The translations under genes were made by a program, and so were the position numbers. Source: Chromatiales bacterium (lineage in GTDB: Bacteria; Pseudomonadota; Gammaproteobacteria; JAGRGH01). Taken from it: DNA of 64,000 nucleotides. The notes below the pieces were generated by a model that saw only the letters and a list, made by a program, of their open reading frames with translations, did not search any database and had not been told where the DNA came from. Positions 37,523 to 43,692 of this stretch are shown here, in pieces (the first letter of the stretch is position 1; each line of letters begins with the position of its first letter). The DNA is taken from positions 62,001 to 126,000 of the forward strand of contig JAGRGH010000049.1 of the NCBI GenBank assembly GCA_020445605.1, read 5' to 3'.

Positions 37523-37642
37523 CGGCGGCAACGCGATCGCCGTGCACACGAAGACCGAGGGGGCGGTTGGGCTGATCGCCGCCGAGACCGCGTTCATGCA
37601 CCACGACGCCCTGGGATCGGTCGACACGGTCACCGACCTCAA
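37523..37642 (+). repeat. 120-bp direct repeat, copy 1 (Rhs core)
   Basis: Matches 40144-40263 with only 4 differences by eye (116 of 120). It encodes the same Rhs core segment GNAIAVHTKTEG to GSVDTVTDL. Homology ends abruptly on both sides, marking likely recombination or duplication limits. Confidence 0.9.
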
Positions 37643-38213
37643 CGCGCGGGTCATCGACCGCCAGGGCTTCGATCCATTCGGCGGCCGGCGCACTGGCGAG
37701 TGGGCGCCGGACGGCGCGGGCCCGGCAGCACTGGCGCTCAAACCCACCAACCGCGGCTTCACCGGCCACGAGCAGATCGACGAGATCGGCCTCATCCACA
37801 TGAACGGGCGGGTCTACGACCCGACCCTGGGCCGGTTTCTGTCCGCCGACCCCATCGTCGGCCAACCGCTGAACACCCAGGCCTACAACCGCTACGCCTA
37901 TGCCCTGAACAATCCGCTCAAGTACACCGATCCGAGCGGGCATAGTCCACTCTTGATCGCCCCGGTTTTGGCTGCGCTCGCGAAGGTGGTGAGCGCGGAG
38001 CTTGCGTTGCCGGTCATCGCTCAGGTTGCGGTGGTGGCCACGGTTACCTACATCGGAACCTACATAGCAACGGGCGGAAATTCATCTGCGGCGCTCTCAG
38101 GGGTAGTCGTACTTTTGGCCGAATTTTTGGCGGTTTCTTCTGAAGCCGACCCAGCCTATCCGCCAGAGGCCGCGGAACTACCTGATTCTGTGGGCTTTTT
38201 CATCCATTCCTGA
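37523..38213 (+). pseudogene. Rhs-family C-terminal core fragment with hydrophobic tip (5-prime truncated)
   Basis: Open frame running from a stop at 37509 to 38213. The core part is unmistakable: HHDALGSVDTVTDL, DPFGGRR, NRGFTGHEQIDEIGLIHMNG, VYDPTLGRFLSADPIV and YNRYAYALNNPLKYTDPSGH, the RHS-associated core that ends the shell of Rhs/YD-repeat toxins. After DPSGH comes a strain-specific tip with two hydrophobic segments (LLIAPVLAALAKVV and VIAQVAVVATVTYIGTYIA) and no recognised toxin domain. The N-terminal thousand or so residues of a normal Rhs protein are missing; only GTG 37542 could start it. The last 58 nt run antisense to the next gene, so the tip end may also be artificial. Confidence 0.85.
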
Positions 38214-38704: not shown

Positions 38705-39030
38705 CTATTCCACAGGGGTAAGCACCGTACCGCAGCCTGAACTCGGCACCAATTCGATATACAGAGCCTTTCGTCCGACGATGACAGCTAGCGTAGACCT
38801 CTTGTCCCGACGCTTCGCTGATAAGCAATTCCATTCCGATCTATCGAGGCCAGAAGGATGGGGATAGTCTTCCGGATGGGTGTGCCATTCGCCCAGATAG
38901 CGAACTATGCCCTGACTCGCCACCCATTGAGACAAAGCGATGACTTTGTGGCCAAAAGGCATCCGCTCGAACAAGTAGCGAAACCGTTTGTCCCATGCAG
39001 TGGGAACCGTTGCCTGCTCAATGAGCAGTT
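38705..39030 (-). pseudogene. Truncated JAMM/Prok-JAB metalloprotease domain
   Basis: The minus-strand frame reads IEQATVPTAWDKRFRYLFER, then GHKVIALSQWVASQ, then RYLGEWHTHPEDYPHPSGLD, then LAVIVGRKALYIELVP. HTHP followed by seven residues, Ser, two residues and Asp is the exact JAMM zinc pattern HxHx7SxxD. The style matches the prokaryotic JAB deconjugases found in mobile elements and in CBASS type II (Cap3-like). The N-terminal strand with the catalytic Glu is missing and no start codon precedes the homology. The 5-prime end joins parE out of frame at about 39028. Confidence 0.8.
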
Positions 39031-39201
39031 GTCGTCGCCGACCTCCGGGGTCATCCTGCCGACGCGGGGCAGTTCGTTGAGCACGCCGGTCTTGGTGGCG
39101 ATCTCCTGGGTGACCTTCCTGGCGTAGTGCGGGGAGTCTGTAGCGATGTAGTCGAAGATGCGGTGCAGATCACGCTTGGCCTGATGCGACCACCTTACCA
39201 C
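39028..39201 (-). pseudogene. Truncated ParE/RelE-family toxin
   Basis: GTG 39201 begins MVRWSHQAKRDLHRIFDYIA, then SPHYARKVTQEIATKT and LPRVGRMTPEVGD, the N-terminal 58 residues of a ParE toxin. The C-terminal strands that complete the RelE fold are replaced by the JAMM remnant read in a foreign frame, so the encoded toxin is surely inactive. The start overlaps the antitoxin stop by 7 nt, the usual toxin-antitoxin arrangement. Confidence 0.82.
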
Positions 39202-39374
39202 CGCTCGATCTCGCGCAGGAGATCCTCGTGGGGGGTGGTGCGGCCGGCCTCGACGTCCTCGCGGCCCTTGCGGACCTTGTCGAGCACGTAGAGCCGGTAC
39301 ATGATCTCGTCCATATCGGCGTCATCGGGCAGTTTGCCGATGGACTCCAGGGCTTCTTGTTTGGCGGGTTGCAT
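39195..39374 (-). CDS. Small antitoxin partner of ParE
   Basis: 59 residues, beginning MQPAKQEALESIGKLPDDAD and ending EDLLREIERW. Short acidic helical proteins of this shape (MDEIMYRLYVLDKVRKGRED, then GRTTPHEDLL) precede ParE/RelE toxins in many genomes and serve as antitoxins. The gene is intact although its toxin is broken. It lies 21 nt downstream of the XRE regulator and overlaps parE. Confidence 0.8.
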   Translation of the reverse strand: MQPAKQEALESIGKLPDDADMDEIMYRLYVLDKVRKGREDVEAGRTTPHEDLLREIERW

Positions 39375-39951: not shown

Positions 39952-40357
39952 GTCCGCCAACAAGCCGATCCGGTTCACCAGGGGCTCGACCGGGGTGCGC
40001 TTTGCCTACGACGCGGCCCGAAACCGCTTCCTCAAGCAAACGGCGGCCGCGACGACCCACTACCTGGACAAGCTCTACGAGCGCAGCTTCGAGACCGACG
40101 ACCAGGGTCAGCCCGTCACCAAGGCACGGCATTTCATCTACGTCGGCGGCAACGCGATCGCCGTGCACACGAAGACCGAGGGCGCGGTCGGGCTGATTGC
40201 CGCCGAGACCGCGTTCATGCACCACGACGCCCTGGGATCGGTCGATACGGTCACCGACCTCAAGGAGAGGGCGCTTGTAGGCGACGTCTGGCCTAGCGAT
40301 CTGCGTCTTGCTGCACAGGCTCCAGCAGCTGCGCTTGGTCATTGGCCGGCCGATTGA
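39952..40357 (+). pseudogene. Rhs-family core fragment, 5-prime part relative to the other copy
   Basis: Open frame after a stop at about 39949. NKPIRFTRGSTGVRFAYDAA, HYLDKLYERSFETDDQGQPV, ARHFIYVGGNAIAVHTKTEG and HHDALGSVDTVTDL are YD-repeat/Rhs shell sequence. Homology stops at 40263, after which the frame runs into sequence next to the SRAP gene and ends at 40357. Joined to the 37523-38213 fragment through their shared 120 bp, it would rebuild one continuous Rhs core end. It has no N-terminus and cannot be a working protein. Confidence 0.85.
40144..40263 (+). repeat. 120-bp direct repeat, copy 2 (Rhs core)
   Basis: Partner of 37523-37642, same orientation, offset 2621 bp. The segment between the copies carries the hydrophobic Rhs tip, the small coiled-coil gene, the JAMM/parE remnants, the antitoxin and the XRE gene. 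Confidence 0.9.
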
Positions 40358-40979
40358 CGGCACGGCTGACCGGAAAGCCTTCCATGGCCTCAGCCGGATA
40401 GGGTGCAAGCATCGCCTGCAGCTCGTCGGGTTTCCTGAACTCGGGATCCAGCCACTTCGCGTAATCCTTTTGCGCCAGGATCACCGGCATCCGGTCATGC
40501 ACCGCAGAGACACATTCATTGGCCGTGGTCGTGATCAGGGTGCAGGATTCCACGACGGGGCCTTCACGGTCCCAGCGCTCCCAAAGCGCGGCGAAAAAGA
40601 ACGGCTCGCCATCGCGCATCCGGAAGTGATGGGGGTGCTTGCCGCCCGCAACGACGGCCCATTCATAGAACCCGTCGGCACACACCAAGGCGCGCCTGTG
40701 GCGAAAAGCAGCCCGGAACGCTGGCTTGGAGGCCACGGTTTCGGCTCTGGCGTTGATCAGTCGATTGCCGATGGAGGGCTCTTTGGCCCAGAACGGCACG
40801 AGCCCCCAACGCAGCATGACCAGTTGCGGACCGGCGTCCGAATCTTCACGCGCCGCCAGCACGTGGCTGCCCGGGGAGATGTTGTAGCGAGGCGGCAGAT
40901 CAGGAACGCCTGATCCCTCGATCCCGAGGATTCTGGAAAACCGGTAGCTTGGAGTGTGATTGGTGTAGCGCCCGCACAT
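40293..40979 (-). CDS. SRAP-domain protein (HMCES/YedK family)
   Basis: 228 residues from ATG 40979. Cys2 in MCGRYT is the catalytic nucleophile that crosslinks abasic sites in single-stranded DNA. NARAET, the Glu in ADGFYEW and the His in VHDRMPVIL complete the active site; all are present. RWGLVPFWAKEP and HHFRMRDGEPFFFAALWERW are further family blocks. It should shield abasic sites in ssDNA. Its 3-prime end lies 30 nt from the broken Rhs homology, on the opposite strand. Confidence 0.94.
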   Translation of the reverse strand: MCGRYTNHTPSYRFSRILGIEGSGVPDLPPRYNISPGSHVLAAREDSDAGPQLVMLRWGLVPFWAKEPSIGNRLINARAETVASKPAFRAAFRHRRALVCADGFYEWAVVAGGKHPHHFRMRDGEPFFFAALWERWDREGPVVESCTLITTTANECVSAVHDRMPVILAQKDYAKWLDPEFRKPDELQAMLAPYPAEAMEGFPVSRAVNRPANDQAQLLEPVQQDADR

Positions 40980-41289
40980 GGAGCGCCATTGTGAGGCCTG
41001 GGCCAATCGAGCGCCGGGACACGGTGCACTGGACTCCCGATCCAGGGGTTTTCGCGAAACTTTCGTAGTTTGCGCGTACGACCAACCACCACCAACGTCG
41101 ATTCGACGAGGTTCTAGATTATACTTTACATAATAAACATTATGCGCAATCTTGAAACGGGGGCAGACCGTTCGCGGAGGGATCGAAATCTCTAGCCCGC
41201 GCACCGCTCAATCAGGCGATACTAAAACTTTTAATACAATTGCTTACGCCACACATCGCATGCCAATTATTGGATCAATTCCTTTGCAC
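40980..41289. other. Gene-free, partly AT-rich region upstream of the SRAP gene
   Basis: No coding frame of quality. The stretch 41110-41150 is strongly AT-rich (TTATACTTTACATAATAAAC) and 41215-41290 is also AT-rich. This contrasts with the GC-rich surroundings and suggests promoters for the minus-strand SRAP gene or foreign DNA. Confidence 0.5.
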
Positions 41290-41463
41290 CTAGTCCTCAG
41301 CGAAGAAGTTCATCACTGCTTCTGCTTCGGACAGGGTTGGCACCTTTTCAACTGGGTTCCCCCAGTCGTCGATCACGTCGAAATACTCATATCCGTCGCC
41401 AGTGTCGACGACGCGTTCGATCGTATAGGCACCGCGGGTCCGCACGATTTCCCGGGTGATCAT
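41290..41463 (-). CDS. Small paralogous protein A (57 residues)
   Basis: Reads MITREIVRTRGAYTIERVVD and so on to the stop at 41290. I recognise no family. It has a beta-rich front (GAYTIERV, YEYFDVIDDWGNPVEKV) and a C-terminal helix (SEAEAVMNFFAE). It shares 29 of 56 aligned residues with the next gene, including IER, DDWGN and EAEAV. Such conservation between copies of a short frame, with mostly conservative changes, argues that both are real. Role unknown. Confidence 0.7.
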   Translation of the reverse strand: MITREIVRTRGAYTIERVVDTGDGYEYFDVIDDWGNPVEKVPTLSEAEAVMNFFAED

Positions 41464-41596
41464 ATTTCGTCCGCCTTTGCGGGCAACACCTGCCCACTGG
41501 TGATCCCGGCTTCATAATCGCGGAGAGGCGGATCGCGTGAATCCCAATCCACGGATGGGATGGCAGGGATTGCGGTATGCGCCGCAACGCCGATAC

Positions 41597-41767
41597 CTAG
41601 CCGGCAAAAGCCTCGAGGACGGCCTCGGCCTCTTCGATGGTTTCTAGCTTGTCGACGCAATTTCCCCAATCGTCAACAACCTCGAAAGACTCAAAGCCGT
41701 CGCTTGGGTCCGTGATGCGCTCGATTCGGTAACCACCGTTGCTCTTGATGAGTTCTCGTGACTGCAT
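41597..41767 (-). CDS. Small paralogous protein B (56 residues)
   Basis: Begins MQSRELIKSNGGYRIERITD and ends with EEAEAVLEAFAG. It is the tandem paralogue of protein A, 133 nt upstream on the same strand. The DDWGN core and the C-terminal EAEAV helix are shared, while the charge pattern differs (more acidic here). A GGAG lies about 11 nt before ATG 41767. Likely a tiny alpha/beta domain; function not known. Confidence 0.7.
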   Translation of the reverse strand: MQSRELIKSNGGYRIERITDPSDGFESFEVVDDWGNCVDKLETIEEAEAVLEAFAG

Positions 41768-41964
41768 GTGGTCGGCAACTCCGGGCTCTGCCAGACCCTA
41801 GCATCGCTCGGGAGCGAGGGCCTTGGCGTGGGTCAATTTTTCGTGTTTGTCACAAGGGACCGATGCGGCAGATCGGGCTGATTGCTAGACGGCGGAGTCG
41901 GCGAGCCGCAGCGGCTTCTCGCTGCGGCAAAGGAGTTCGGGTTTTCGGTTCCGGAATGGCGCGG

Positions 41965-42312
41965 TCAGGTCCAGGCCTCGCCGTAGTCGTGCGTGATTTC
42001 GTCGCCGGGCTTTATTGCCCGCAGTGCGACCACGGTAAAGTCGTCGAGGTAGACGGCGTTGGGTCGTTTCGAATGGTTGATGAATCGCATCGCATTCAGT
42101 ACGCGGTACCCTGCTTCGTTTCCGTCCTCATCCTCGATCCACAGCACGTAGGCCCCGTTTCGCCGCGCGGGCTGGACCTCGCAGGTGCCGATGACGGTGT
42201 CACGCGGAATCTTTTCCCCGGCAAACAGGCCGCGGCCATGAATGCCGCTGCGTGCGACGTAGGTGTTGGGTGGTTTCACAGCCTTCTTCGGTGCGGATTT
42301 TCGGGTCTTCAT
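41965..42312 (-). CDS. Minimal SET-domain protein methyltransferase
   Basis: 115 residues. A lysine-rich N-terminal tail (MKTRKSAPKKAVKPP) precedes the SET core: GIHGRGLFA (residues 24-31), RFINHSKRPNA with N79-H80-S81 and P84-N85 (SAM pseudoknot), and DEITHDYG with Y110 as the catalytic tyrosine. The post-SET zinc site is absent. Such stand-alone bacterial SET proteins methylate lysines, but targets are mostly unknown. It starts 9 nt after the ygfX stop, so it may be transcribed from the sdh operon. Confidence 0.9.
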   Translation of the reverse strand: MKTRKSAPKKAVKPPNTYVARSGIHGRGLFAGEKIPRDTVIGTCEVQPARRNGAYVLWIEDEDGNEAGYRVLNAMRFINHSKRPNAVYLDDFTVVALRAIKPGDEITHDYGEAWT

Positions 42313-42321
42313 GAATCAGCG

Positions 42322-42768
42322 TCAGGTATCGGTGGCGGCGGAATGTGAAAGTCGCGCACGCAGAAGGCGAATCTGGTCAGGGTCTGCGCTGTCCCCGGTG
42401 AGAATGATGGTCCGGCGGCGTTTGTTTGCGACGCGAAATTGAAGCACGATCACAACGGCGGTGACAACGGAAGCATCCAGCAGACGTGCCGAATGTTCGC
42501 GGCCGTTGGCGAGAGTGAGCACCCATGTCCGGTCGTCGAGCAGCCGCATGCGGACGATGGCGCCCGGATGCGTGCGTCGGGCGTGCAACGACAGGTCGCG
42601 CCACAACAGCAATGCCAGCAGGATGGCGGCGATGGCGCGTGCCGCAACGCTTGTCTGCGGCAAGCCGAACGCCAGTGCGGCGAGCGCAAGGGAATACAGC
42701 GTCGCCAGCACGAACCCGGCCTGCTGCGACGGGAGAAGCTTCAGTTCAAACGCTGTTTCGGATTGCAC
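42322..42768 (-). CDS. YgfX/CptA-like membrane protein
   Basis: 148 residues from GTG 42768, inside the sdhE 3-prime end. FELKLLPSQQAGFVLATLYSL and the next hydrophobic stretch form two membrane helices (about residues 15-33 and 37-54). A soluble beta-rich end follows (MRLLDDRTWVLTLANGRE, then RRTIILTGDSADPDQIRLLR). The E. coli homologue was described as a toxin-like inhibitor of FtsZ/MreB paired with SdhE; that role is debated. Confidence 0.8.
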   Translation of the reverse strand: MQSETAFELKLLPSQQAGFVLATLYSLALAALAFGLPQTSVAARAIAAILLALLLWRDLSLHARRTHPGAIVRMRLLDDRTWVLTLANGREHSARLLDASVVTAVVIVLQFRVANKRRRTIILTGDSADPDQIRLLRARLSHSAATDT

Positions 42769-42994
42769 GGACCAGACGCGCCATGTCTTGGTCGGCGGGA
42801 ATCTGCTCGCCCAGCAGCCAGCCGGCGAGCACGTGGTCGTTGAGCCCAAGCAGGGTTTCGAAATGCTGCCGGTCCGATTCAGCAAGCGAATGCAGACCTC
42901 GAGCCAGAAAGGCGTTCAGCAGCAGATCGAGCTCGCGCATGCCACGGCGACACTGCCATTGCAGGCGCCGCAGATCGTGGGCGACATCGTTCAA
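42746..42994 (-). CDS. sdhE: FAD assembly factor SdhE
   Basis: 82 residues. The start is TTG 42994, overlapping the sdhB stop. RRLQWQCRRGMRELDLLLNAF carries the RGxxE motif that touches the SdhA flavin site, and FETLLGLNDHVLAGWLLGEQ completes the five-helix fold. It promotes covalent flavinylation of SdhA. It directly follows sdhB, the usual gammaproteobacterial position, and overlaps ygfX by 23 nt. Confidence 0.93.
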   Translation of the reverse strand: MNDVAHDLRRLQWQCRRGMRELDLLLNAFLARGLHSLAESDRQHFETLLGLNDHVLAGWLLGEQIPADQDMARLVRAIRNSV

Positions 42995-43692
42995 ATCGCC
43001 TTGCGCAGCATCAGGTTCTTGATGTTGCCGATCGCGCGCGTCGGGTTCAGTCCCTTGGGGCATACGTCCACGCAGTTCATGATGGTGTGACAGCGGAAGA
43101 GTTTGTAAGGCCCGTCCAGCGCATCGAGGCGTTCGTCGGTCGCCTGATCGCGGGAATCCGCCAGAAAGCGCCAGGCCTGCAGCAGCGCCGCCGGCCCAAG
43201 AAAGCTCTCGGGATTCCACCAGAATGACGGACAGGACATCGAACAGCAGCCGCACAGGATGCATTCGTAGAGCCCGTCGAGTTCGTCGCGTTGCGCGGGC
43301 GACTGGCGAATCTCGTGTTCGGGATCGGGGTCGTTGCGTACCAGCCAGGGTTTGACGGCGCGGTACTGTTTGTAGAACGGCGCCATGTCGACGATCAGAT
43401 CGCGGATGACAGGCACGCCGGGAAAAGGGCGCAACTCGATGGGCTGTTTCAGGTCGGTCAGTGGCGTAATGCACGCAAGTCCGTTGCGACCGTTGATGTT
43501 CATGCCATCGGACCCACAGATGCCCTCCCCGCACGAGCGCCGGAAACTCAGCGTCTCGTCCTTTTCCTTGAGTTTCAGCAAGGCCTCCAGCAGCATCATG
43601 CCGGGCTCGATATCGGCATCGTCCAGCACGTGCCGCTGCATGTAGGGCGCGGAATCCACGTCCGGGTCGAAGCGATAGATCTGAAATTCCAC
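42991..43692 (-). CDS. sdhB: Succinate dehydrogenase iron-sulfur subunit
   Basis: 233 residues with three Fe-S clusters: [2Fe-2S] at RRSCGEGICGSDGMNING, [4Fe-4S] at CILCGCCSMSCP and [3Fe-4S] at CHTIMNCVDVCPKGLNP. It passes electrons from the SdhA flavin to ubiquinone on the cytoplasmic face of the inner membrane. 20 nt after sdhA. Confidence 0.98.
   Translation of the reverse strand: MEFQIYRFDPDVDSAPYMQRHVLDDADIEPGMMLLEALLKLKEKDETLSFRRSCGEGICGSDGMNINGRNGLACITPLTDLKQPIELRPFPGVPVIRDLIVDMAPFYKQYRAVKPWLVRNDPDPEHEIRQSPAQRDELDGLYECILCGCCSMSCPSFWWNPESFLGPAALLQAWRFLADSRDQATDERLDALDGPYKLFRCHTIMNCVDVCPKGLNPTRAIGNIKNLMLRKAI

Follow-up and report, generated by a model that had tools for sequence, protein, structure and literature searches.

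Gene pair between the SET and SRAP genes

Two short genes on the minus strand, here called A and B, were found between a SET-domain gene and a SRAP gene in the window, i.e. the whole stretch of 64,000 nucleotides that was analyzed. Gene A (41290-41463) encodes 57 amino acids with a pI of 4.15, and gene B (41597-41767) encodes 56 with a pI of 4.07. Both begin with ATG, and the two start codons fall in the same column when the genes are aligned. Each is identified by its open reading frame, its paralogy with the other and an AlphaFold2 model, to which codon-position bias is added for A. The upstream neighbor is a 115-residue SET-domain protein (41965-42312, minus strand; PF00856, E 1.1e-14), while the downstream one is a SRAP protein of the HMCES/YedK type starting at MCGRY (40293-40979, minus strand; PF02586, E 5.1e-72). 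Both the presence of two short same-strand frames and their placement between SRAP and SET genes, as described in the initial annotation, were thus confirmed.

The spacer from the SET stop to the start of B measures 197 nt (41768-41964), that from the stop of B to the start of A 133 nt (41464-41596), and that from A to the SRAP gene about 310 nt. No convincing promoter or terminator was seen in the spacers between SET, B and A, and neither an RNA family nor a tRNA was found in the area around the pair. The 133-nt spacer is unrelated to the region upstream of B, as indicated by an alignment score of 10.0 against 10.4 for shuffled sequences. Between A and the SRAP gene, the AT-rich positions 41000-41290 (GC about 0.53) are possibly the control region of the latter. 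The A-B segment itself has a GC content of 0.57, compared with a window mean of 0.65, placing it at the 2nd percentile. At third codon positions, GC is 0.71 in A and 0.67 in B, with the nearby genes that were measured ranging from 0.74 to 0.88 except for a JAB remnant at 0.58.

Genomic surroundings

Upstream of the pair, on the same strand, the gene order is sdhA, sdhB, sdhE, ygfX (PF07254) and SET. The ygfX/cptA gene (42322-42885, minus strand), whose family is labelled a toxin component, is the toxin-like gene nearest to A and B, but it lies beyond the SET gene and adjoins sdhE, its known partner. No toxin gene adjoins the pair, the immediate neighbors being SET and SRAP. As an observation on this region in its own right, sdhE and ygfX/cptA (42322-43022, minus strand) directly follow sdhAB and are in turn followed by the small SET gene, relatives of which were found in 61 other genomes among the 369 of the class that were searched.

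On the other side, a 128-nt segment occurs twice on the plus strand at 95% identity (37523-37650 and 40144-40271). It was named Rhs-core-like from its sequence and has no Pfam match. The two copies flank a 2.5-kb stretch holding XRE, ParE and JAB genes. The truncated JAB/MPN gene (38705-38974, minus strand) best matches the PADLOC JAB models of CBASS-type systems (E 7.5e-31), with the match starting only at about model position 71, so that the N-terminal part is missing; it is likely a remnant of a defence locus. Overlapping it is a ParE-type toxin frame (within 38905-39374, minus strand; PF05016, E 4e-9), which seems to lack its own end, and directly upstream of this a 59-residue frame without Pfam match looks like its antitoxin. 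The XRE regulator is likewise located within 37.5-40.3 kb. Together with the region of A and B, this looks like an accessory stretch, none of whose genes has been tied to the pair.

Coding status and selection

A and B align over their full length without internal gaps and share 29 invariant positions, among them D32, D33, W34, G35 and N36 as well as E46, A47, E48, A49 and V50. The BLOSUM62 local score of this alignment is 170, as compared with 22 ± 4 and a maximum of 49 in 5,000 shuffles. The shared positions, the DDWGN core and the EAEAV motif reported earlier from the letters of the sequence were confirmed. Over 55 codons the genes differ at 66 nucleotides, distributed as 20, 13 and 33 over the first, second and third codon positions, respectively (Fisher p = 0.00035). 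When 66 differences were instead placed at random, 17.6 residues stayed identical on average and never more than 26, so that 29 was not reached in any of 20,000 trials. By the Nei-Gojobori method pN is 0.30 and pS 0.73; after Jukes-Cantor correction dN is 0.38 and dS about 2.7, giving a dN/dS of roughly 0.15, an inexact value since dS is near saturation. Given this concentration of differences at third codon positions, A and B are real coding sequences, both under purifying selection, in agreement with the earlier claim that the frames are coding; their alignment shows them to be paralogues.

The near-saturated synonymous divergence implies that the duplication is old and, furthermore, that other members of the family exist or have existed. 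In the 3.36-Mb genome, A and B are the only two copies, the next match being a 24-residue chance match. Recent rearrangement, which the initial annotation had claimed for the region, applies to the surroundings, as seen from the 128-nt duplicate, but not to the pair, since the duplicate is more than 1 kb away and the duplication giving rise to A and B is old.

Search for relatives

No family match for A or B was found in Pfam or NCBIfam, nor in the PADLOC models up to E 10, a set that covers defence proteins but not most phage inhibitors; the earlier statement that no family could be recognized therefore stands. Among about 1,150 proteobacterial genomes, in partly overlapping sets of 55 relatives, 369 same-class genomes, 398 from the phylum and 385 from a different class, no relative was detected. 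The same was true for 84,980 species genomes (two pattern scans), for viral contigs (five scans), for phage and plasmid records (tblastn) and for the vicinity, within about 1.5 kb, of the SET genes of 29 other genomes. The scans of the large collections require an exact match to peptide patterns of about 7-10 residues and thereby easily miss distant relatives. An A/B alignment widened with synthetic filler rows served to loosen these patterns and is not evidence in itself.

Several weak matches were inspected and rejected. Low-scoring matches in genomes (E 0.0018-0.5) were mostly fragments of long unrelated frames and are read as chance; among them, a group of three reads like a tRNA-synthetase-type frame, and many have a '.f.VvD.WGN.V' strand in common with gamma-glutamyltranspeptidase-like frames. 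The single match in another class covers 24 residues within a frame of 395. Viral contigs with the pattern DDWGN.V[DE] encode unrelated proteins, a match in Aeromonas phage Ah1 (E 3) is situated at the end of a 186-residue protein, and sequence matches to neuraminidase in the PDB span 20 residues and are attributed to chance. Residues 23-54 of B match PHROG 30106, a phage family without assigned function, at E 0.037, while A does not match it. This is too weak to make it the family of A and B, and the profile matched nothing in 229 genomes or controls.

The host order is represented in the searched genome set by this genome alone, which together with the pattern-based nature of the large scans makes the orphan status of the pair partly a sampling effect. 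This matters for the combination that the initial annotation had named as counting against the pair, i.e. absence of homologues, a dN/dS near 1 and no expression. The tblastn check, along with the genome searches, indeed returned no homologue, yet the dN/dS between the copies is far below 1, so that the combination does not hold, and the absence of homologues is a weak criterion here because missing relatives are to be expected when only one genome of the order is available.

Predicted fold

With only the sequences of A and B as input, AlphaFold2 gave models with a mean pLDDT of 93.3 and a pTM of 0.76 for A, and 90.4 and 0.71 for B. Both are predicted, confidently, to adopt one common compact fold of the order beta-beta-beta-beta-alpha, with strands at about 2-10, 13-20, 26-32 and 37-41 and a helix at 44-56. 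In the models, DDWGN starts where strand 3 ends and makes the turn into strand 4, while EAEAV falls inside the C-terminal helix. Judging from sequence periodicity, the spacing of A47, V50 and F54 in this helix is that of a side used for packing, with E46 and E48 expected to face outward. The net charges of the two proteins are about -8.5 and -9.5, with 13-14 acidic (D/E) against 5 basic (K/R) residues, and neither is hydrophobic overall, which argues against binding to nucleic acids or membranes.

Foldseek returned no match at E 0.001 or better for either model in any set, including viral predicted structures, and among solved structures none below E 0.5. Re-alignment ranked chain D of 6d7k, i.e. 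MmoD, first for both (Z 6.6 for A and 6.2 for B; rmsd 2.0 over 51-52 residues), although Z values below 8 are common among small folds and the likeness may reflect a mere common arrangement. The AP2 domain 6sy0_A came second for both, with Z 6.3 and 6.0 and an rmsd of 3.2-3.4.

Possible functions

The reading that we tentatively lean towards is that A and B are small acidic modulators or inhibitors that bind a partner protein, and represent two members, derived from an old tandem duplication, of an undescribed, lineage-restricted family. That duplication yielded two acidic, presumably soluble mini-proteins, both kept by purifying selection, each with a predicted four-stranded antiparallel sheet and a single C-terminal helix packed on one of its faces. 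The acidic charge and the compact sheet-helix fold favor protein binding over nucleic-acid binding. Contact with a partner might be made by the DDWGN turn together with the sheet, either at its edge or on the face left free by the helix, and the partner would then be modulated or inhibited, by analogy with MmoD. Also in favor of this reading are the position of the pair in a low-GC stretch close to Rhs, JAB and ParE remnants and the small phage proteins with a similar layout. Two copies may have been kept because their partners diverged or because they form a dimer.

The latter leads to the rather improbable alternative that A and B act as one unit, either as an obligate heterodimer or as homodimers able to mix. 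It is consistent with two conserved tandem genes on one strand with the same predicted fold. Judging from strand alternation, the less conserved face of the strands would also keep a hydrophobic stripe (positions 6, 18, 31 and 41) that could constitute the interface. The 133-nt gap, however, bears no sign of coupling, and the upstream regions of the two genes are unrelated.

It is similarly unlikely that the genes are antitoxin, immunity or anti-defence cargo left behind by mobile elements, e.g. orphan Rhs immunity genes or phage-derived inhibitors. The duplicated Rhs-like core (37523 and 40144), the truncated JAB gene best matched by CBASS-type models and the ParE toxin at 38.7-39.2 kb, and the low GC content of the A-B segment agree with such an origin, as do the small phage proteins predicted to have the same layout (see below). 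Against it are the lack of a toxin next to the pair and the lack of homologues in the phage, plasmid and viral-contig searches. A and B are moreover situated on the strand opposite to the Rhs fragments, for which reason an immunity role toward these was set aside.

Equally doubtful is that A and B are ordinary mini-proteins specific to this lineage that serve in housekeeping rather than in conflict, their relatives having escaped sampling. The searched set contains no second genome of the host order, and the saturated synonymous divergence speaks of an old family that must have had other members. The low-GC accessory setting, as well as the absence of relatives near the SET genes of the 29 other genomes, nevertheless fits poorly with this. 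The partner-binding, heterodimer, mobile-cargo and housekeeping readings overlap in part.

Finally, AP2-like DNA-binding proteins, built of three strands and a helix, are suggested by the second-ranked fold match but are very improbable, as the rmsd is above the 2.0 of MmoD and the surplus of acidic residues, at a pI of 4.1, does not provide the basic nucleic-acid binding surface of that type.

Whichever of these holds, A and B are of interest as a clean orphan small-protein pair rather than as a demonstrated system, their function being inferred. They constitute a clear case of a small-protein family missed by the family libraries and confirmed through selection between paralogues in one genome, and are at present one of many lineage-restricted small families without assigned partners.

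Comparison with known systems

Several small proteins share the predicted layout. Uncharacterized phage proteins of 58-78 residues in BFVD have it at Foldseek E values of 0.017-0.09, which are not significant. The closest in superposition, A0A4Y6ELL8, reaches TM 0.86-0.88 at 0.8 Å over 54 columns (E 0.017-0.025). Another, A0A6J5T9X3 (60 residues), shares 33% identity with B across 57 columns. The uncharacterized YaiA of E. coli (2kvt) has the same layout as A, on which 47 of its residues superpose with an rmsd of 1.8 (Z 5.9), but identity is 13% and the alignment does not start before residue 11 of A, leaving the first strand unmatched; it has no entry among the matches listed for B.

The partner-binding reading that we favor draws on a comparison with MmoD, the subunit that inhibits soluble methane monooxygenase by binding to its hydroxylase (PMC9001735; PMC13045389). 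MmoD resembles A and B in size, and their models in strand-helix order and superposition, with structural-alignment identities of 28% (B) and 15% (A). No sequence similarity was detected, 6d7k being returned neither by the profile nor by the single-sequence search against PDB chains with a cut-off of E 10. A and B furthermore differ in being tandem paired genes outside any monooxygenase cluster. Neither the hydroxylase (PF02332) nor MmoB (PF02406) was matched in this genome, a weak negative given that the control genomes gave none either, and on this weak ground the role of MmoD proper seems unlikely for A and B. The closest structural homologue of the N-terminal domain of the anti-CRISPR protein AcrIF24 is also MMOD (PMC9001735). 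This domain, likened to A and B by description only, is a small sheet with a helix, but has five strands and forms part of a bigger protein that also carries an HTH domain (PMC9001735). Inhibition through binding by MmoD, together with an MmoD-like domain in AcrIF24, suggests that this fold lends itself to inhibition. The most specific version of this, in which A and B are diverged copies, possibly a heterodimer, of a new MmoD-like inhibitor family that switches off a partner enzyme, defence or phage protein in an isolated proteobacterial lineage, is quite unlikely as it stands. Should an MmoD-like mode of action be true, the pair would be a further instance in which so small a fold serves to inhibit proteins.
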